Source: a virus. From it: a stretch of 23,997 nt of DNA. The notes under the pieces are model-generated. The model saw only the letters and a program-made list of their open reading frames with translations. It did not search any database and was not told where the DNA came from. A program made the position numbers and the translations under genes. Below are positions 1,188 to 23,997 of the stretch, one piece after another. Position 1 is the stretch's first letter; each line of letters begins with the position of its first letter. The stretch covers positions 1 to 23,997 of IMG/VR virus record IMGVR_UViG_3300017969_000148; one strand, 5' to 3'.

Positions 1188-1195
1188 TATTTATC
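1188..1195 (-). promoter_or_regulatory. T4-type late promoter core GATAAATA
   Basis: Read leftward the core is GATAAATA, 7 of 8 matches to the T4 late consensus TATAAATA. It is 17 bases before the ATG of the 200-residue gene, with a GAGG ribosome site between. The same core precedes three other genes in this window. Confidence 0.7.
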
Positions 1196-1200
1196 TTGTT

Positions 1201-4200
1201 TTAAACGTTATATTGATAATTTGGAAATAGAATGTATTGTTCATTCACATTATCAAGCGTTCTATCAATTATATATCTATCTATTGTAAAGTCGATATTT
1301 TTTACATCAAAATTTCCTTGATTGATTTCATTTTTAATGTTTAATAAAATATCTGCACTTCTTCCTGGTTTACAATAGCAGACTGGAACTGCTGTTGTGT
1401 AATCCAATTCTCTTAGTTCGGTATCTGCTTGCGGTGTACGCATCCATAGTGGAAGATACAATCTATCATTACCGCCTGTTATTTCAATCCTATCTCTCAT
1501 ATGATCAATATTTGAATTATAACGTATATTGTCAGATGTTTGTGCTACATTAACACTAGTATTATCTGCTTTAATTGTTGTATGTGTAGGTCTTATACGC
1601 ATTGGTTCGCTATCTGCTTTAAGAAGTGTAACGGTAATTTCTTGATCGCCACGAATAGTAATAGTAAAGTCTTCGTTATCTGCGTCTATAGCAATATTAC
1701 TTCCTTCTCTAGGATCTATTATAATTTCTTCTTGGCTAGGAACAATAAATCTTACTGTTTGTCTACCATAGATAGGAACTTCCGAAATACCACTTGCTGT
1801 ATTTGTATTGTCATCTGCAATAGAGTATTCTATACTGTCAACTGTTAGTCTGTTTTTATTGGTGATTGTAAACGACTTTTTCGTTGTTCCTTGTTTTGGT
1901 TTTTGCGGATCTATTACTTCTATATAAACAACTTCGTATATAGTTTCTGTGGTGCCAGGTTCTCTAGCAATCGCAGTTTTAAACTCACCTAATCTAAGTC
2001 TACGTCTTTTGTGATGCTGGGCTGTTGCAGCAACAAAAACATCTACATTTTTAGATTCTATACCAGCATATGCTAACATCTGAATTTGTTTTTGGATACC
2101 AAATTCTGGATCATCTGGTCTATAAATATATTCTGGAACAAATACATCTGGATTACTAACGAATGTTTGATAACTATTTCTGTTTCTTTGTTCTAAAAGA
2201 GGACGCATATACAAGTTACTATAGCGCAAATTGTCTTCATCACTTACCTTTAAAACAAATTCTCTAGTAATTGCACTTAACCCAAATCTATCTCTTGCTT
2301 CTACAGTAAATTTGTACTCTCTATCAAATGTTGTTCGTTCGCCGCTTATACCGTCAAAGGTAGTTGCGTTTGCATCAAAGGTTGTTAATCCAGGACCATT
2401 TACATCTTGATACTGTCTAGGGCGTCCTATTAATTCTCCTGATCGATTTAATCTTATACCAAACGGTAAACGTCCGCTTTCTAGTGTGTAAATCAAACTA
2501 GTATCGGGTACAGTGGTGGTTGCTTGTACTCTTAGTGTACTTAAAAAGTTTGCCGGCAGTGTTCCTAGATCACTGTCGGTAATCCATCTAATTGTAGTAT
2601 CAATTTCACCTATAATTTGTATTTCAAAGGTTTTACTTTTAGAAGGAAAATCTACTAATTCGTCTGTTTCTGCAACAGCGACATCCTTGCTAAAGAAATC
2701 TCCTCTGAATAGTGCTATACCTATGTTACGTCCGTCTGTTATATTTCTTTGTAGAGGATTTTGTAGATTTAATTTATTTTCATTATCTCTTGTAATAGTT
2801 AATAGGGTTGAGCCGTTTTCTGTTCCGTAAAAGAATTCTGCAACTTTAGAAATCAAACGTGTAAATGCTGTACTAGGCATTCTAACAGCAAATGCACCAG
2901 TATTTTTTTGTTCTATTGTAATTTCACCCTGTACATATTTTCTGCTTAAGGATTGTATAAGCATATTGTTATTTGTTTCTTGATCTAACAACAGCTGGCT
3001 TGCAGCAACATATTGCCATCTTAGCGCATCAAACTCAAGAATAAATTCGCCGTTATCGTCGGTTATCGGAGCACCTAGTTCGTCAGTTACTGATTTAGCA
3101 GTAAAGGAATCACCGAGAACTACTACTTTCATAATCCCGTTACCACCTGATAAAGGTAGTTTGTCTATATTAGTATTTGGATTTAAAGCACCAGATTTTG
3201 TTGTGTGTATCATTAGTGTATTAACGTCAAATATTCGCAAGAAGTAAATTGTATTTGCATCTGCTCCTACTGGTAACTGACCTGTACTTTCTATTTGCAC
3301 TGGTGCTCCGTTGAGCGAGTCTGCATCAAGTCCGTGTAACGGAGATATAATATTACCTGCAATATATTGTTGTACTGTAGCATCTATAGAACTTTTGTCG
3401 CCGAAAGCTACTTGATATATTCCAGCCTGATATGTTTCATCACCGGCATAACTTGCATAGTCTCCTAGATTGTATTCTGTTCCAACAGTCATCTCTAAAC
3501 TAGAATTGCTTGCATATACTGCTCCAAAGTTTCTGTCTCTTACTGAATACTCTAGATAAGGTACTATGCTATCAATTGTATAAAATTCGTTTTGAGAAAA
3601 TCTTATCTGACGACCAAGAATTTTATCTTGCTGTTCGCCTGTAAGTTCGCGAACAAATAGATGATTTTGTTGGGCTACTCCTGGCTTTGTTAAACTTAAA
3701 GAAATATAAGGATCTAAAGAATTATCTAGAGTGATAGTATCATATTCAGGATTGGTGTCATCAACTGCTGTTACTTTATATTCTTTATCATAAAGTTTAA
3801 TAGATCTCGTTACAAGTTCTTTTAAATCGTCTACACCGTCTATATCACCAGTAAGATCTAGCTTACCTATTTTAAAGGTAGTTGCTCCTAACAGTGTGTC
3901 TTCGTAGAACGTGCCAAATATAGTTGCAGTTCCCGTATCACCTTCAAATCTAGTTGCTGTAACACTAAATTTATAGTTCTCTGTGATTGCTGGCTGATAA
4001 GGAACACGGCCTGTTACTTCGCCCGATTTGGTATCAAGTGACATGCCCGGAGGCAATTGACTAGGAGTACCGTCATCATTAAAATCGTCTAGAGTATAGT
4101 ATACTTGACCGTATAAAAATTCGTTCTCGATCACATCTAAAAACAAAGTTACATAGTTATTTGCTCGTCTAAATCCTAAGTCTCTTGGAGTTAACCATAC

Positions 4201-6000
4201 TGGGTTTCTAAGATATGTGTTATCTGCTGTAAATATGCCTGTTCCTGATTGCATAATTGCGTTATCAGCACGTAGGTAATCATCGCCTACTAGGTATACA
4301 TTAAATTCTCTTTTTACAAAAGTATCACCGTCTGTAACTGTAACTATAAACGGATAGTAACGATTTAATTTTTTAGGTATAAGTGTAGGTATATTAAAAT
4401 CATAGTTTTCTAAATCATAAAAATAAGTACCGTATCCGTTAGCACTTTTTACATTATAATCAGCCATAATACTGTCATATAAATCTTGATCATATCCTGC
4501 ATCTTTTTGACTTCTAGCAAGAGCAAACAAAGGTTCAACAATACCTTGTATTTTTCCGTCGTCAGTTAATGTTAATCCCGGAGGTAGTTCTCCGTCGCCT
4601 TCAGCAATAAAGTATGATAGCGTATCGCCCGCGGGCAAGTCGTTGTCATCTGCAAGCAGTTGATAATCGATTAACTCGTTATCTAAAACAAAATAATGAT
4701 TACTCGGTCCGGCATCTAATAATCCTGAAGGTGTTAACCAATAAGGTTCATCTGGTCCTGAAGTAATTATTTCAAAAGTTCTATCTTCAGTTCTAGCATT
4801 AAAGTAGGCACGTAAAACAAATCTCGATACTGTGTCTCTTTCTACCTCAAAAGGAGTTCCTTTAATTGCGGTGCCTTCAATTCGTAATCCAGCAGGCAAT
4901 GATCCTGCTATTAGCTCTATTCTTGGACTTATACCGTTTGCAACAGGTAATCTTATTTCAATAGTATTTCTTTCTATAATAGTACTTAAAATATTACCAC
5001 TACCTAAGTTCCACAAACTCTCTACATATCTTTGTTCGCCTAATCCTGCTGTTCTTGCTTGTTTAGTTTGATTACCAAAAAAATAAGGATATGCAGGTTC
5101 TTCAAGTGTTAAATCTGTAAATGTTATAAAATATGCATATGTTCCGTTCGGAAACTCTGGAGTTTTACAATATCTTCCGTTGTATTGATCAAGTGTCCCT
5201 ATATTTTCAATGTACTCATAGTCTTGTATATAAGTTCCTAGTTCTAAGGTATAAAGATCATCACCTATATCTATTTGATCTGTTTCTTTGTATCCTTCTG
5301 GTCTATGTCTATCGTTTGTTTTTAACCTATAACTAGATGACATTACAGATGCTCTGCTGTTAGTATCGTCAGGGTCTTTATATCCGTACGGACCGTATAT
5401 AGGATATCCATCAAAGCAAAATCCTATTATCTTACTGTGTCCGTCTGCATGTCGCATGTGATCTTTACCGAACGAAGTATCTCCATAATATTTGTTAGTA
5501 GAATATACTTTTGCATCTTGGAAAACACTTTTTAGAAACTCGCCGCTGTAATAGCCGTAAGACCCAAATGCATCTGGAGATCCTGTTGCTGCATCTAATT
5601 TAAATACAGATTTCAAACGAAAGACATCAAAATTTAATCCAGGATGAGGTTCTGAGCTACTTGTAGGTAGTTGCTGAATAGGAAAAGAAGGGCTATTTAA
5701 GAACACTCCGTTTGCAGCTATTCCGATAGGACCTGTACGTCTATCAGTAGCATTTTCACTATTACGTGTTCCTCTATAAGTAAATGTTAAATCTCTACTT
5801 TGTTTTGTAATATTATTATTTTCAAGGAAGTTTCGGCGTTCGTTTGCCCCATCATTAATTAAAGGGGTTCCAGCCGCCGCTGGAAACGGGTCACCATCTG
5901 TGACTAATCTAATTGTTTCGCCTTCTAACCCTATTTCTGTAATACTAGGATATTGTCCTGTGTTATCTGAAATAGCAATATCGTCAGGTTTAAATGCCAT
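1201..6000 (-). CDS. Large adhesin/tail protein with YHYH domain and Ig-like repeats, 1599 residues
   Basis: The start ATG at 5998-6000 follows a GGGAG ribosome site (about 6008-6012) and a late promoter. Residues about 75-310 resemble a YHYH domain: GPIGIAANGVFLNSP (90-104), HSKIIGFCFDGYPIYGPYGY (188-207), then LDQYNGRYCKTPEFPNGTYA and PAYPYFFG near 303-309. Beyond it are several putative Ig-like (He_PIG type) units, recognised by short signatures such as GSLPAGLRIEGTAIKGTP, LPPGLTLTDDGKIQGIV, LPPGMSLDTKSGEVTGRV and LPFGIRLNRSGELIGRP. A middle segment (LHGLDADSL ... FLRIFDVNTLMIHTT) is related to one in the 2901-residue protein. There is no signal peptide, as expected for a virion protein. 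It is probably a long tail or host-recognition fibre. The YHYH assignment is by motif memory; binding partners are unknown. Confidence 0.88.
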   Translation of the reverse strand: MAFKPDDIAISDNTGQYPSITEIGLEGETIRLVTDGDPFPAAAGTPLINDGANERRNFLENNNITKQSRDLTFTYRGTRNSENATDRRTGPIGIAANGVFLNSPSFPIQQLPTSSSEPHPGLNFDVFRLKSVFKLDAATGSPDAFGSYGYYSGEFLKSVFQDAKVYSTNKYYGDTSFGKDHMRHADGHSKIIGFCFDGYPIYGPYGYKDPDDTNSRASVMSSSYRLKTNDRHRPEGYKETDQIDIGDDLYTLELGTYIQDYEYIENIGTLDQYNGRYCKTPEFPNGTYAYFITFTDLTLEEPAYPYFFGNQTKQARTAGLGEQRYVESLWNLGSGNILSTIIERNTIEIRLPVANGISPRIELIAGSLPAGLRIEGTAIKGTPFEVERDTVSRFVLRAYFNARTEDRTFEIITSGPDEPYWLTPSGLLDAGPSNHYFVLDNELIDYQLLADDNDLPAGDTLSYFIAEGDGELPPGLTLTDDGKIQGIVEPLFALARSQKDAGYDQDLYDSIMADYNVKSANGYGTYFYDLENYDFNIPTLIPKKLNRYYPFIVTVTDGDTFVKREFNVYLVGDDYLRADNAIMQSGTGIFTADNTYLRNPVWLTPRDLGFRRANNYVTLFLDVIENEFLYGQVYYTLDDFNDDGTPSQLPPGMSLDTKSGEVTGRVPYQPAITENYKFSVTATRFEGDTGTATIFGTFYEDTLLGATTFKIGKLDLTGDIDGVDDLKELVTRSIKLYDKEYKVTAVDDTNPEYDTITLDNSLDPYISLSLTKPGVAQQNHLFVRELTGEQQDKILGRQIRFSQNEFYTIDSIVPYLEYSVRDRNFGAVYASNSSLEMTVGTEYNLGDYASYAGDETYQAGIYQVAFGDKSSIDATVQQYIAGNIISPLHGLDADSLNGAPVQIESTGQLPVGADANTIYFLRIFDVNTLMIHTTKSGALNPNTNIDKLPLSGGNGIMKVVVLGDSFTAKSVTDELGAPITDDNGEFILEFDALRWQYVAASQLLLDQETNNNMLIQSLSRKYVQGEITIEQKNTGAFAVRMPSTAFTRLISKVAEFFYGTENGSTLLTITRDNENKLNLQNPLQRNITDGRNIGIALFRGDFFSKDVAVAETDELVDFPSKSKTFEIQIIGEIDTTIRWITDSDLGTLPANFLSTLRVQATTTVPDTSLIYTLESGRLPFGIRLNRSGELIGRPRQYQDVNGPGLTTFDANATTFDGISGERTTFDREYKFTVEARDRFGLSAITREFVLKVSDEDNLRYSNLYMRPLLEQRNRNSYQTFVSNPDVFVPEYIYRPDDPEFGIQKQIQMLAYAGIESKNVDVFVAATAQHHKRRRLRLGEFKTAIAREPGTTETIYEVVYIEVIDPQKPKQGTTKKSFTITNKNRLTVDSIEYSIADDNTNTASGISEVPIYGRQTVRFIVPSQEEIIIDPREGSNIAIDADNEDFTITIRGDQEITVTLLKADSEPMRIRPTHTTIKADNTSVNVAQTSDNIRYNSNIDHMRDRIEITGGNDRLYLPLWMRTPQADTELRELDYTTAVPVCYCKPGRSADILLNIKNEINQGNFDVKNIDFTIDRYIIDRTLDNVNEQYILFPNYQYNV

Positions 6001-6021: not shown

Positions 6022-6029
6022 TATTTATC
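6022..6029 (-). promoter_or_regulatory. T4-type late promoter core GATAAATA
   Basis: Read leftward, ACGATAAATATG surrounds the core. The identical 12 bases occur before the 1178-residue gene at about 13125-13136. It lies 21 bases upstream of the YHYH-protein start, with a GGGAG ribosome site between them. Confidence 0.75.
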
Positions 6030-6773: not shown

Positions 6774-6781
6774 TATTTAGC
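6774..6781 (-). promoter_or_regulatory. Possible weak late promoter (GCTAAATA)
   Basis: Read leftward, GCTAAATA differs from the local core GATAAATA at one position. It overlaps the stop codon of the subtilase gene and lies 18 bases before the 238-residue gene. Chance similarity is possible because the region is AT-rich. Confidence 0.35.
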
Positions 6782-9557
6782 TAACAATTATTCTTCCGTG
6801 TGCATCATTAAAGAGACTGCTTTGATAATAGAATATGCCTCTTGCTCTAGGCCTAAATGTAATAGTTCCTGATGTTGCACCTTGACCTATACTATCGCCG
6901 ACTTGATTATCTGTTCCCGGACCTTGTACATCTTTCATGTAAATTGGACGCCCTGCACTACTTACTGTAAATAGTATTGTATCCCCGTAATCTATGTTAA
7001 TGTCTATGTTATTACCAAAGATACCCGTTGTTCTATCTTGTCCGGCAATTTCAAACGCATTATCTCCTTGTTTAGATATAAAGATATCAAATTGTACACC
7101 TGGAGGTCTAGCAGGTGATGCATCTAATAAGTCTACTTCAAGGAATTCACTTCTACCATCTAGTTCTAGTTGCATTACTTCCGAACCTTCTGTTGTTAAA
7201 TCTCTTGTAGTTGTTATAGTTGTTGTTGCAGTATTGTCATTTACTATAAATGATCCTGTTAATGATTCGTTTATATCACTTGCACTGATTCCTGTAATTG
7301 TATAAGGAACACTAGTTCCGTCAAACACATCAGTTGTTGTAAGTGTAAATGTGACACCAAAGCCTTCATCAATTTCGGTATCACTGACAGAAAGTGAATA
7401 AGTTGGTGTTTTACTAGTATCTGTTACAGATACAAACACTGGATTAGCAAACGGGTCATCTAAAGAAAATGTAATTAGTTCAGTACCTTCAGTTAGTTGA
7501 TCTTCTCTAAGTGTTATGCTTACACTCCCTGCTCCGCTTACAAGATTTATATTACCTGTAATACTACCTGAGCTTAAATCAAATTCATCTATGCCAGTAA
7601 TTGTATAACCTAGTAATCCGTCTTCTACGTTTTTCGTAGATAGTGTAAATGTTACAGTGTCACCTTCGTTGATAACATCAGCACTCTTAGTAAGTGTGTA
7701 CACCGGTCTTTGATCTGTAGTACTTGTGTCGTTAATTTGTATACCAATTTCGGCTTTGCCGTTATCTAATGTTAGCACAAAATTTTGATCACCTTCTGTT
7801 GTCAAATCAACTGTGGTAGGAAATGTAAGACTTGCTGTATTACTATTAACAACAAAATTACCAGTTAGTGAAACACCGTCAATGTCTTCAGATTCGATTC
7901 CTGTAATTGTATAAGGAACACTGGTTCCGTTTGCAACATTTTCAGTTGTTAAGGTAATTGTAAAAGATTGTCCTTCGTCTACTTCTAAAACATTCTTAGT
8001 AAGTGCATACGTTCTGTGAGTTGGGAAACTAGACGATAATAAAATATTACTGTTATAAATGTTGTATGCAAACTTATTTTCGCCGCCCCAAAGGCTTCTA
8101 GAATTTCCATAATCTGTATCAAGCCCTGTGCTTGTGAGTTTATTATCTTGCACATTAGACATGAACCATGTTTTAACTTGCGCAGGAGTAGCACTTGGAT
8201 TGAGTCCTAAGTACAATGCGATCATTCCTGCAACTTGTGGAGCTGCCATACTTGTACCGCTTATGTTTGCTTGCTGGAAGAAAGAACTTCCTTCCCCTTG
8301 TTCATAGTCTGCTGTAGCAAAATCTGCAACAACACTTGCTGCACTCATAATATTTGTTCCTGGTGCAAATACTGTTGTGCCAGGCCCTGAATTACTCGAT
8401 TGTGCTTTTTGTTCTGCTCCTACACCGATAGTAGAATCAACGTTATTTACAATAAACGCTTCGTCATCATAAGGAGACATACCTCGGTGATAAAACCTAG
8501 TATCACCGTAGAAACTACTATTCCAACTGTTATCATAATCATCTCCGCCGGGTACATCTACTTTGTGAAAATCATTACCCGATGCAATTACAACATGTAC
8601 ACCTTCGTCAATAAGTTCTTGCACATCAACGTCAACACTGGCTACTCTATAAGGATGATTAAAAGATACACCATCAAAGCTACCTGTCATGCCTCTATTA
8701 GTATCTCTATTAATACCTGTCCAAGGAACTCCTCTATAAGTGCCTCCAGTTACACCTATGTACCTGCTAAAAAATCCCCAACTCATATTAATCACAGTAG
8801 GTCTTTTGTATCCTGTGCTAGGTTCAATAGGCTTATTACGATGCCATAATTTCATTAAGTCAAAAGCAGTTGTATAAGAAATACCTACAGAAGGATCATT
8901 AGATCCTTCTAAACCTGCAACTTTCATAGAAAAAATTTGTGCGTCTTTTGCCCAACCAAAATAAAGTCCTGTTGCAATGCCAGCAACGTGTGTTCCATGT
9001 CCGCTGTAATCGTTATAAAATCCCGAAGGCTGAGTGCCTGATACTCCGGCAGCAGAATACCAGTTTATATTTTGTACTCTGCTATTGCCTTCTCTATCAG
9101 CAAATTCTGGATGTGTAGAATAAATTCCACTATCCATTATAACTACATCTACACCAGTACCTTTTATTGTATAGTTATATCCACCGTCTACGGTATTACC
9201 GGTATAAGGATCATCTACTTCGTTTAAGCGTCTTAATCCCCAGTTTACAAACGCACCGCTATCGGAAGTTGTTTTAGTAAAGTCGCTTTCTTGCACAGCA
9301 TGACGTCCTATAAAAATGTCATCTCTGTCTAAAGGATTTATCTCTACAGCGTAAACTCTGTCATCTTCACGCAATGCTGCTGCTTCTTCATCTGTAAGCA
9401 TGTAGTGAGTATTTCTGTAACTGCCTTCTCGAGGATCTGCAATGTCAACAGCTCTGTTTGGAATCGCTCCTGCACCTGTTGATGCAATCATTTCTGCATC
9501 AAATGCAGCATAATCAACGTTGCGGTTTAGACTAACTACGTATTCTTTTTCGCTCAT
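6777..9557 (-). CDS. Subtilisin-like serine protease (S8) with Calx-beta-like repeats, 926 residues
   Basis: The catalytic triad of family S8 is intact: Asp142 in IMDSGIYSTHPEF, His187 in SGHGTHVAGIATG, Ser436 in SGTSMAAPQVAGM. Asn328 in IASGNDF is the likely oxyanion-hole residue. Residues about 1-80 look like a short inhibitor I9-type propeptide (EYVVSLNRNVDYAAF ... VYAVEINP). After the protease come three repeats of about 95 residues (516-612, 619-715, 719-812) with VDEG, YTITGI and TEG signatures, Calx-beta-like. Residues 820-926 form a separate C-terminal unit ending GIFYYQSSLFNDAHGRIIVS, cupredoxin-like in appearance. There is no signal peptide. The start follows GGAG at five bases; the gene is nine bases after the 1178-residue fibre gene. 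It is probably virion-associated, cleaving either phage structural proteins or host surface material; the target is unknown. Confidence 0.92.
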   Translation of the reverse strand: MSEKEYVVSLNRNVDYAAFDAEMIASTGAGAIPNRAVDIADPREGSYRNTHYMLTDEEAAALREDDRVYAVEINPLDRDDIFIGRHAVQESDFTKTTSDSGAFVNWGLRRLNEVDDPYTGNTVDGGYNYTIKGTGVDVVIMDSGIYSTHPEFADREGNSRVQNINWYSAAGVSGTQPSGFYNDYSGHGTHVAGIATGLYFGWAKDAQIFSMKVAGLEGSNDPSVGISYTTAFDLMKLWHRNKPIEPSTGYKRPTVINMSWGFFSRYIGVTGGTYRGVPWTGINRDTNRGMTGSFDGVSFNHPYRVASVDVDVQELIDEGVHVVIASGNDFHKVDVPGGDDYDNSWNSSFYGDTRFYHRGMSPYDDEAFIVNNVDSTIGVGAEQKAQSSNSGPGTTVFAPGTNIMSAASVVADFATADYEQGEGSSFFQQANISGTSMAAPQVAGMIALYLGLNPSATPAQVKTWFMSNVQDNKLTSTGLDTDYGNSRSLWGGENKFAYNIYNSNILLSSSFPTHRTYALTKNVLEVDEGQSFTITLTTENVANGTSVPYTITGIESEDIDGVSLTGNFVVNSNTASLTFPTTVDLTTEGDQNFVLTLDNGKAEIGIQINDTSTTDQRPVYTLTKSADVINEGDTVTFTLSTKNVEDGLLGYTITGIDEFDLSSGSITGNINLVSGAGSVSITLREDQLTEGTELITFSLDDPFANPVFVSVTDTSKTPTYSLSVSDTEIDEGFGVTFTLTTTDVFDGTSVPYTITGISASDINESLTGSFIVNDNTATTTITTTRDLTTEGSEVMQLELDGRSEFLEVDLLDASPARPPGVQFDIFISKQGDNAFEIAGQDRTTGIFGNNIDINIDYGDTILFTVSSAGRPIYMKDVQGPGTDNQVGDSIGQGATSGTITFRPRARGIFYYQSSLFNDAHGRIIVS
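7122..8012 (-). repeat. Three tandem Calx-beta-like repeats in the protease gene
   Basis: Three coding repeats of about 285-290 bases each (about 7722-8012, 7413-7703, 7122-7403) share LT.....EVDEG..FT.TLT, YTITGI and DLTTEG motifs. The outer two copies keep a 35-base stretch (7287-7321 and 7896-7930) with only one difference, while the middle copy is more diverged, suggesting recent copying between the first and third units. Confidence 0.75.
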
Positions 9558-13126: not shown

Positions 13127-13134
13127 TATTTATC
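13127..13134 (-). promoter_or_regulatory. T4-type late promoter core GATAAATA
   Basis: Read leftward, ACGATAAATATG surrounds the core, in the 39-base gap between the 167-residue and the 1178-residue genes, 23 bases before the latter's start. The 12-base context is identical to that before the YHYH-protein gene. Confidence 0.75.
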
Positions 13135-22503: not shown

Positions 22504-22869
22504 TTAATCCATATATTCTGGTGGAAATGCGTCCATATCAAAATTTATACTTACACCACACCCGCAACTACTTTGCGCATTTGGGTTTTGTATGTCAAAC
22601 ATAGAACCCATTATGTCTTTTTTGTAGTCTATTACAGTTCCAACTAAAAACATAATGCTATGTGACCCTATTGCTAACTTACCTTCACCTGCTTCAAATA
22701 TTTCATCATCTTCTTCTAGTTCTAGTTGATGTTTAACAGTACCCCAGTCGTATTCGAACCCTGCACAGCCACCACCTTTGATGTTTAGTGTGACTGCAAA
22801 ACACTCATTTTCTTTACAAATTGTATTAATTTGGGCTTTTGCTGCGTCAGTTAGTGTACAAAATGACAT
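22504..22869 (-). CDS. A-type iron-sulfur carrier protein (IscA/ErpA/HesB family)
   Basis: At 121 residues the length is typical of the family. The three cluster-binding cysteines are present: Cys35 in KGGGCAGFEYDW and Cys102/Cys104 in SSCGCGVSINF. The segment GTVIDYKKDIMGSMFDIQNPNA before the CGC pair matches the family pattern. Such proteins carry or transfer Fe-S clusters to target proteins in the host cytoplasm and are known auxiliary genes of marine T4-like phages. The start at 22869 has an AAGGAG site four or five bases upstream and a late promoter before it. The next gene, the giant fibre, begins 13 bases downstream, so the two are probably co-transcribed. The Asp/Glu-rich middle (LELEEDDEIFEAGEG) is more acidic than usual. 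Which cluster target it serves is unknown. Confidence 0.94.
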   Translation of the reverse strand: MSFCTLTDAAKAQINTICKENECFAVTLNIKGGGCAGFEYDWGTVKHQLELEEDDEIFEAGEGKLAIGSHSIMFLVGTVIDYKKDIMGSMFDIQNPNAQSSCGCGVSINFDMDAFPPEYMD

Positions 22870-22888: not shown

Positions 22889-22896
22889 TATTTATC
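22889..22896 (-). promoter_or_regulatory. T4-type late promoter core GATAAATA
   Basis: Read leftward, TACGATAAATAAC, 19 bases before the Fe-S carrier start, with AAGGAG between. It is probably the start of the late unit including the giant fibre gene. Confidence 0.75.
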
Positions 22897-23217: not shown

Positions 23218-23382
23218 TTATTCGGACTTCCAAATAGTCCAGCCACCGTAAACGATAGCAATGCCGGCTGCTATTTTTGCAAGCGGCGCCAAAAACAACA
23301 CCATAAGTCCTAATGCAACTAATAATGCACCGTCCCATGATGTACGTTCTTTCATTCTAGAATTTATCCATTTTTTAAGCAT
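23218..23382 (-). CDS. Small single-span membrane protein, 54 residues
   Basis: A strong ribosome site AAGGAGGG (23389-23396) precedes the ATG at 23382. The product starts MLKKWINSRMKERTSWDGAL and continues with one hydrophobic segment of roughly 25 residues (about 19-46, with LVALGLMVLFLAPLAKIAAG), ending YGGWTIWKSE. Basic residues before the segment suggest an N-in orientation. The start overlaps the stop of the 84-residue gene by eight bases (ATGCTTAA), indicating translational coupling. I recall similar short proteins in marine T4-like phages, without known function; a role at the host membrane is an inference only. Confidence 0.82.
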   Translation of the reverse strand: MLKKWINSRMKERTSWDGALLVALGLMVLFLAPLAKIAAGIAIVYGGWTIWKSE

Positions 23383-23629
23383 CCGTAACCCTCCTTAGTT
23401 TCTTTTCAAGAGTGCTAATACGAGCATCTTGATTACGAATTTTTTCTTCTAAACCTTGTACATATTTTTGACTCGGAATAGTATGTTCTGCCCCGTCTTC
23501 ACCTAATACGGTCATAGTGTCAACACCTTGGCCACGCAACCCACCTAAAACTCTGTTAGGATTTTTATTAGATGATGATTGGGTCTGGTCCGGCGACTTT
23601 CTGCCGTACATCTTTGTAAGATATGACAT
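23375..23629 (-). CDS. Small coiled-coil phage protein, 84 residues
   Basis: An AAGGAG site (23639-23644) lies nine bases before the ATG at 23629 (MSYLTKMYGRKS) and only three bases before an ATG at 23635; the former is chosen. A later ATG at 23611 (MYGRKS) has no ribosome site. The N-terminal half is polar and likely flexible (SPDQTQSSSNKNPNRVLGGL), followed by DTMTVLGEDGAEHTIPSQKY and a C-terminal coiled coil (LEEKIRNQDARISTLEKKLR). The first 60 or so bases overlap the end of uvdE in another frame. The exact T4 late consensus TATAAATA at 23650-23657, inside uvdE, would drive it. The last bases overlap the start of the membrane protein gene. Function unknown; the promoter suggests late, possibly structural. 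Confidence 0.82.
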   Translation of the reverse strand: MSYLTKMYGRKSPDQTQSSSNKNPNRVLGGLRGQGVDTMTVLGEDGAEHTIPSQKYVQGLEEKIRNQDARISTLEKKLRRVTDA

Positions 23630-23997
23630 CAGCATCTGCTCCTTTGTAGTATTTATACAGCTCGATACTTGCTAGATTCTTACATTTAGACTCTACCATA
23701 ATATCTGCGTAAGGTAAAAATTCTAGTGCCCAGTCGTTAACTGCATTGTTCCACATGTAATCGCTATGCGCTCGCAGTTTAGCTTTCTTGTAACCTGCTT
23801 CTAGTAACGAATCCATATTAGGACGCATGTTAGTAGGATAATTTCCTATTAGGTCTTCCCTACTTACACTGTAATGAATAACAGGACGCACACCACGCCA
23901 ACTATCTACTACGCGAGCAAATCTATCGTCGGTGGGCTGAATGTATTCACCTTCACGGCACCAGTGATGGTGTATGTCAAGAACGAGTGCGCAGTGG
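23568..23997 (-). CDS. uvdE: UV damage endonuclease UvdE, C-terminal part (cut by window edge)
   Basis: About 143 residues of the C-terminal part are visible; the frame is open to the right edge. The family nicks DNA 5' of UV photoproducts using a TIM barrel with several metal ions. Motifs that match metal ligands are present: LVLDIHHHW (Asp and His), VIHYSVSRE (His), LRAHSDYMWN (His) and DIMVESKCKN (Glu). The GTG at 23891 is internal, because LVLDIHHHW lies upstream of it in the same frame, so it is not the start. The 3' end overlaps the 84-residue gene by about 62 bases and contains its promoter and ribosome site in the residues YKYYKGADADV. UvdE genes occur in marine T4-like phages, where they would protect phage DNA in sunlit water. 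Confidence 0.88.
   Translation of the reverse strand, partial: HCALVLDIHHHWCREGEYIQPTDDRFARVVDSWRGVRPVIHYSVSREDLIGNYPTNMRPNMDSLLEAGYKKAKLRAHSDYMWNNAVNDWALEFLPYADIMVESKCKNLASIELYKYYKGADADVISYKDVRQKVAGPDPIII
23639..23644 (-). promoter_or_regulatory. Ribosome binding site deciding the 84-residue gene start
   Basis: AAGGAG read leftward lies three bases before the ATG at 23635 and nine before the ATG at 23629. The second spacing is within the normal range, so the 84-residue product is preferred. Confidence 0.65.
23650..23657 (-). promoter_or_regulatory. T4 late promoter TATAAATA inside uvdE
   Basis: The exact eight-base T4 late consensus, read leftward, is within the coding sequence for YKYY of UvdE and about 20 bases before the preferred start of the 84-residue gene. 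It is the only perfect consensus found near a gene start in this window. Confidence 0.72.

Follow-up and report, generated by a model that had tools for sequence, protein, structure and literature searches.

Overlapping gene starts occur in compact phage genomes, where an out-of-frame start codon and its ribosome-binding site lie inside the end of the upstream gene, and promoters inside upstream genes are known in general. A search of the literature on promoters inside overlapping phage genes found nothing by title. Late genes of T4, KVP40 and cyanophages such as S-PM2 are described as having an upstream 8-bp box, TATAAATA or NATAAATA, without a -35 element; the T4 box is reported to span positions -13 to -6 (PMC1524935, PMC2988020) and the late promoter of S-PM2 is given as NATAAATA (PMC2984593). 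Unlike these gp55/gp33/gp45-dependent promoters, the box described here is formed by codons at the end of a repair gene, and its predicted leader is about 12-15 nt long. Unlike the overlapping starts of compact phages, the locus has a promoter-like box within the upstream codons as well, and seven unrelated families share the same point. We consider it very likely that a T4-type late promoter has been overprinted on an early uvdE gene in this group of phages and is kept there as a launch pad for exchangeable late genes.

The window, the whole stretch of DNA that was analysed, is a virus record of 23,997 bases. At 23568..23996 its minus strand carries the 3' part of uvdE (UV damage endonuclease), whose 5' end lies beyond the window and whose stop codon ends at 23568. 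The 142-residue UvdE fragment matched a PHROG endonuclease family (E 5.7e-30); searched alone against Pfam, it gave no match. In L003, the nearest relative of the window, UvdE is 100% identical over these 142 residues, and the full L003 uvdE matched PF03851 (E 1.9e-36, 126.2 bits with a cut-off of 24). Through this L003 match, which lies above the PF03851 gathering score, the window gene is classed as uvdE, and its product is predicted to act on UV-damaged DNA.

The signals inside the uvdE tail overlap its codons and could be read directly, as the initial annotation had claimed. On the minus strand, TATAAATA, the form of a T4-type late promoter box, occupies 23650..23657 and doubles as Tyr-Lys-Tyr codons of uvdE. 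It is followed, still within uvdE codons, by the ribosome-binding site AAGGAG (23639..23644) and by ATGs at 23635 and 23629. The reading frame opened by ATG 23629 ends at 23375 (minus strand) and encodes 84 residues. Its first part overlaps the uvdE tail in a different frame over 62 nt (23568..23629), close to the run of about 60 bases that had been proposed, and the same layout is found in relatives. ATG 23635 would give 86 codons; ATG 23629 is the better start, because relatives of the protein begin there, with MSYL, MNYL, MTYL or similar, and because AAGGAG lies 9 nt from ATG 23629 and only 3 nt from ATG 23635. The distance from the box is 20 nt to the former and 14 nt to the latter. If the T4 rule, with the box at -13 to -6, applies here, the predicted transcription start (+1) falls at 23644 on the minus strand.

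Searches with the 86-residue protein found no relative among 50,697 phage records, no Pfam family and no PHROG family, with one of 18 members at E 0.046. The product of the 84-residue gene is predicted to have two strands, preceded by a short helix at the N-terminus and followed by a long one at the C-terminus (mean pLDDT 72.7, pTM 0.40), and this model had no match in the PDB at E <= 0.001. A 54-residue gene with one hydrophobic stretch (23218..23382, minus strand) has an 8-nt overlap with the end of the 84-residue gene and probably shares its late transcript. A homologue of this 54-residue gene stands directly behind the uvdE box in L073 and L079. The window contains two exact copies of TATAAATA, where 3.29 are expected from shuffled sequence. 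Since the octamer is not rarer there than by chance, its significance rests on the relatives and on the other sites of the window.

Relatives were taken from scans of viral_contigs. With the 86-residue protein as query, 30 loci were obtained; four UvdE queries had 431, 303, 555 and 526 confirmed candidates, of which the best 80 each were taken. Because just the best candidates were kept, the comparison set leans to close relatives. All but one (L006) of the 310 sequences held uvdE, many loci were the same contig repeated, and the set contained 108 distinct uvdE 3' ends. In three isolates (L374, L375 and L376, 3 of 76 matching records) and in contig L316 the uvdE ends differ and are without the anchor used, and 19 other genome_contigs matches (L317-L335) were left out of the analysis. 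The sequences are relatives and the counts are not independent; clustering lowers this dependence but does not abolish it.

The box, searched as NATAAATA, is present in 75 of the 108 distinct uvdE 3' ends, with T as its first base in 45, C in 24 and A in 6; the remaining seven bases are set by the search word itself. An ORF of at least 40 codons starts behind the box in all 75. In 68 of these tails the start lies 14-26 nt from the box, at exactly 17 nt in 46 of them, and is equipped with a ribosome site; in the other 7 it lies at exactly 5 nt, and a start finder that requires a ribosome site misses these seven. By comparison, an overlapping ATG preceded by a ribosome site occurs in 2 of the 33 box-less tails, L117 and L221. 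The L117 start looks spurious, because the 84-residue gene stands further on. For ribosome-site ATG starts inside uvdE, a Fisher test on these related, non-independent tails gave p = 4e-16 (65/10 versus 2/31). When GTG and TTG are allowed, overlapping starts are found in 4 of the 33 box-less tails, L156 and L296 being added, which indicates that an overlapping neighbour alone does not require the box. The overlapping gene of the box-less tails L221 (+37 from the anchor) and L296 (+25) is of a further kind, encoding proteins with ...FVI[L/M]GLPR... and having no late box; it is possible that this overlap represents a non-late counter-type.

BLASTP sorted the genes behind the box at the 75 ends into seven unrelated families. 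The 84-residue family stands there at 52 ends, a 54-residue hydrophobic family and a 57-residue family at 6 each, a Cu/Zn superoxide dismutase at 4 (the one tested matched PF00080 at E 2.7e-47), a 67-residue family and a 52-54-residue family at 3 each, and a 73-residue protein at 1. Assignment of the gene behind uvdE in L067 to the 54-residue family was rejected, this being the separate 73-residue protein.

The box is absent from uvdE where the 84-residue gene stands elsewhere. In L029, L030, L031 and L061 that gene is displaced, lying 132, 154, 148 and 604 nt past the uvdE stop, respectively, and at the box position uvdE reads TATAACTAT (L029, L030 and L031) or CACAAATAT (L061). Just ahead of the moved gene, L030 and L031 carry an exact GATAAATA together with GGAG. 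By the moved gene of L029 there is GTAAATA without a ribosome site, and by that of L061 there is CTAAATA, which lies where another ORF ends and has a ribosome site. Across these loci, CTAAATA is followed by a ribosome site and an ATG in only 8 of 96 occurrences; because it rarely precedes such a start, L061 and L029 are weak cases.

The same box recurs ahead of other genes of the window. On the minus strand, GATAAATA is found at 22889..22896, 19 nt before the ATG of an IscA/HesB-like gene (22504-22869; PF01521, E 2.5e-14); at 13127..13134, 23 nt before the ATG of a 1178-residue gene; at 6022..6029, 21 nt before the ATG of a 1599-residue gene with PHROG virion structural and baseplate matches; and at 1188..1195, 17 nt before the ATG at 1170 of a 200-residue gene. 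Altogether, 5 of 5 ATAAATA words on the minus strand precede a ribosome site and an ATG, and the two on the plus strand have no ORF of at least 40 codons starting within 40 nt. With its own GATAAATA box, the IscA/HesB-like iron-sulphur gene is apparently a late gene. The 1599-residue protein (1201-6000) contains YHYH and putative Ig domains, and a 926-residue protein with a subtilase (Peptidase_S8) domain is encoded at 6777-9557, among very large genes.

We extended these counts to the relatives. In 39 reduced loci (433 kb), with the uvdE site excluded, 86 of 107 ATAAATA words precede the ATG of an ORF of at least 50 codons within 40 nt, whereas 20 permuted 7-mers made of the same letters do so in 643 of 4088 cases (16%). 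Three large contigs (G001-G003), which are not wholly independent of the 39 loci since some of the loci lie on the same contigs, gave 111 of 157 (47/69, 46/67 and 18/21) against 14-17% for permuted words. Boxes in these contigs precede genes with head, tail-tube and virion-protein PHROG matches. Of 98 promoter-start units in the three contigs, just 4 have a box that falls within an open frame lying upstream; each contig contributes its uvdE box, which accounts for 3 of the 4. In its octamer form and its restricted distance to starts, the uvdE-embedded box thus has the sequence features of a T4-type late promoter and is predicted to work as one.

It could be argued that an A+T-rich stretch is selected here for translation, as unstructured mRNA or for coupling to uvdE, and that the downstream gene is expressed from the uvdE transcript only. 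The start unit does lie inside the uvdE message, where coupled ribosomes could read it, and the box-less L156, L221 and L296 also have overlapping starts. However, conservation concerns an exact, sharply bordered 7-mer, not A+T content in general, and 94 of the 98 units in the three contigs have the 7-mer before genes that do not overlap an upstream gene. Moreover, the 7 tails with the ATG at the predicted +1 leave no room for a ribosome site. We regard selection for translation as an unlikely explanation of the box.

Codon choice in the uvdE tail also speaks for a conserved late promoter. The peptide [Y/H]KY stands at the box position in 73 of the 108 tails, and 69 of the 73 use TAT/CAT-AAA. 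The initial annotation had raised the question of whether the YKYY codons are kept only when the downstream gene follows. All 69 TAT/CAT-AAA tails have a gene start behind them, which agrees with such a link; the gene can belong to any of the seven families, and a restriction to the 84-residue gene did not hold. The same codons without a downstream gene, which had been named as the counter-evidence, were not encountered: the four [Y/H]KY tails without a box read CAC AAA, TAC AAA (twice) and TAT AAG, and none of the seven launched families is found there. One of the four, L221, has a different overlapping ORF.

Of the 69 tails with the box at [Y/H]KY, 68 had 300 nt upstream, and clustering at 90% identity over this region gave 53 clusters. 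All 53 clusters have T as the third base of the [Tyr/His] codon and A as that of the Lys codon. Among the other two-fold columns within the 36 preceding codons, the 9 that end in a pyrimidine have T in 37-77%, and the 3 that end in a purine have A in 42-70%. The last base of the third codon, just past the box border, is T in only 14 of the 53 clusters. The ribosome site and its spacing likewise persist while the peptide varies, reading KGA in the window, MEK in many relatives and TRS in L023, and the GGAG/AGGA core is kept in relatives despite a different UvdE peptide. As judged from these alignments, it is the nucleotide signal, rather than the peptide, that is conserved at the uvdE tail. Entropy compared frame by frame across the overlap gave a weak result and carries no weight in this argument.

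These data also bear on the view that the codons are kept for a Tyr-Lys-Tyr protein sequence combined with an A+T-rich codon bias, the promoter likeness being coincidental. Such a view would fit the frequency of [Y/H]KY and the A+T-rich composition of these phages (GC 0.37-0.39 across the window and the three large contigs). Yet upstream codon use in 47 loci is TAT 138 to TAC 135 and CAT 145 to CAC 155 (AAA 210 to AAG 65), while at the box the third base is the same in every cluster. Peptides such as YNY, YES, YDY and HEY occupy the box position in box-less tails, six tails (L184, L192, L266, L107, L197 and L251) have the box 12 nt further on with another peptide, and a box with no start behind it occurs in 0 of 75 tails. 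A coincidence of this kind appears highly improbable.

A T4-type late promoter would need a gp55-type reader. A gp55 homologue was detected in 2 of 17 related contigs, namely those of L073, which has the uvdE box, and L256, which is without it; the gp55 on the L073 contig matched a PHROG late-sigma family at E 1.4e-78. A search of G001 and G002, the two largest contigs (275 and 237 kb), found none; these contigs may be incomplete or may encode a divergent factor. The window itself is a 24-kb fragment. That the box is instead an ordinary, early sigma70 -10 element, as the resemblance of TATAAATA to a -10 box and the 15 of 17 contigs in which gp55 was not found might suggest, is very unlikely in view of the NATAAATA form with a variable first base, like that given for the S-PM2 late promoter (PMC2984593), of the position of the box before the virion-structural-like 1599-residue gene and the structural genes of G001-G003, and of the near-perfect sigma70-like sites of these phages, which form a separate TTGACA-N16-18-TATAAT class.

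uvdE itself appears to be served by a promoter of that other class. Using mechanically chosen uvdE starts, ATAAATA was found within 120 nt upstream in 0 of 85 loci, and it is absent from this position in L003 too. In L003, TTGACA-N17-TATATT (4692-4727) stands 6 nt before the uvdE ATG. In 61 of 86 loci the region searched around the uvdE start contains a sigma70-like site matching at least 11 of 12 positions, against a background of 0.07-0.15 per kb and strand. In 28 of the 61 the uvdE start codon lies 5-6 nt past the -10 box, and only these 28 were used; many of the other sites, which are less clear, have the start 15-60 nt away or lie inside apparent uvdE codons. The absence of ATAAATA and the L003 promoter are consistent with the earlier proposal that uvdE would be expressed early and the gene behind it late. 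In L003, L025, L029, L039 and others, the uvdE ATG is merely 5-6 nt past the -10 box, which suggests that the early uvdE message may be leaderless too.

Taken with the predicted promoters, this layout suggests the following course of events. Early in infection, uvdE would be transcribed from a sigma70-like promoter of its own. At a later stage, the TATAAATA box inside uvdE would be opened by host polymerase equipped with a phage late promoter factor. A late transcript would then start near 23644, with a predicted leader of about 15 nt, and would express the 84-residue gene, probably together with the 54-residue gene. In the phage group as a whole, the box would act as a conserved launch pad behind which the gene is swapped. 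The downstream gene could be supplied by early read-through from uvdE as well, and the separation in time may be less than strict. If this reading is true, the locus is a natural experiment in which a promoter has been maintained over long divergence by silent codons in an unrelated enzyme gene and is missing where its dependent gene stands elsewhere. It would also provide a signature in codon choice by which active late promoters could be recognised in uncultured phages, and a reason for the high variability of the UvdE C-terminal tail.

The seven tails with the start at 5 nt (L315, L303, L121, L218, L206, L277 and L205) point to a second mode of starting. An ATG 5 nt past the box would coincide with +1, because the T4 box is reported to span -13 to -6. 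In L315, L205, L218 and L277 the gene directly behind uvdE encodes the Cu/Zn superoxide dismutase, its ATG standing at the predicted +1. This spacing is not confined to uvdE: in G001-G003, an ATG lies exactly 5 nt past 16 of 157 boxes and 4 nt past 6 more, ahead of structural and other genes, whereas permuted words have one at exactly 5 nt in an average of 0.8 cases in total. The 5/4-nt layout is common to three orthologous sets, each present in two or three of the three contigs. Against leaderless starts, at 7 of these 22 sites another start codon stands in frame within the 120 nt upstream, in no case with a ribosome site. Some late genes of these phages thus look leaderless on the evidence of their spacing. 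Leaderless messages are not in themselves new for phages, since the AR9 paper describes phage transcripts as often lacking a leader; a literature search for leaderless T4-type late genes gave nothing by title. Leaderless late messages would, if true, be a testable feature of these T4-related jumbo-like phages.

We tentatively extend the launch-pad reading on this basis. The uvdE tail might be a conserved docking point for late genes, at which one gene is exchanged for another by recombination while the promoter stays in place. The same phages might use two kinds of late start, one about 14-26 nt from the box with a ribosome site and the other leaderless at exactly 5 nt, as for the superoxide dismutase at the uvdE site, with uvdE similarly leaderless from its sigma70-like promoter in many of the phages.

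The 5-nt layout distinguishes the related contigs from T4, where an ATG stands 5 nt past ATAAATA at 0 of 41 sites in 99 kb. The nearest isolates, as judged by one virion structural protein of G001 (38-46% identity), are the jumbo phages PA5oct, Atu_ph07, CBB and GAP32; two 41-kb pieces, from PA5oct and Atu_ph07, contained 36 sites, none of them with an ATG at 5 nt. In PA5oct, GATAAATA lies 19 nt before the orthologue of that G001 gene, with a ribosome site, whereas in G001 and G002 the same orthologous gene has its ATG 5 nt from the box.
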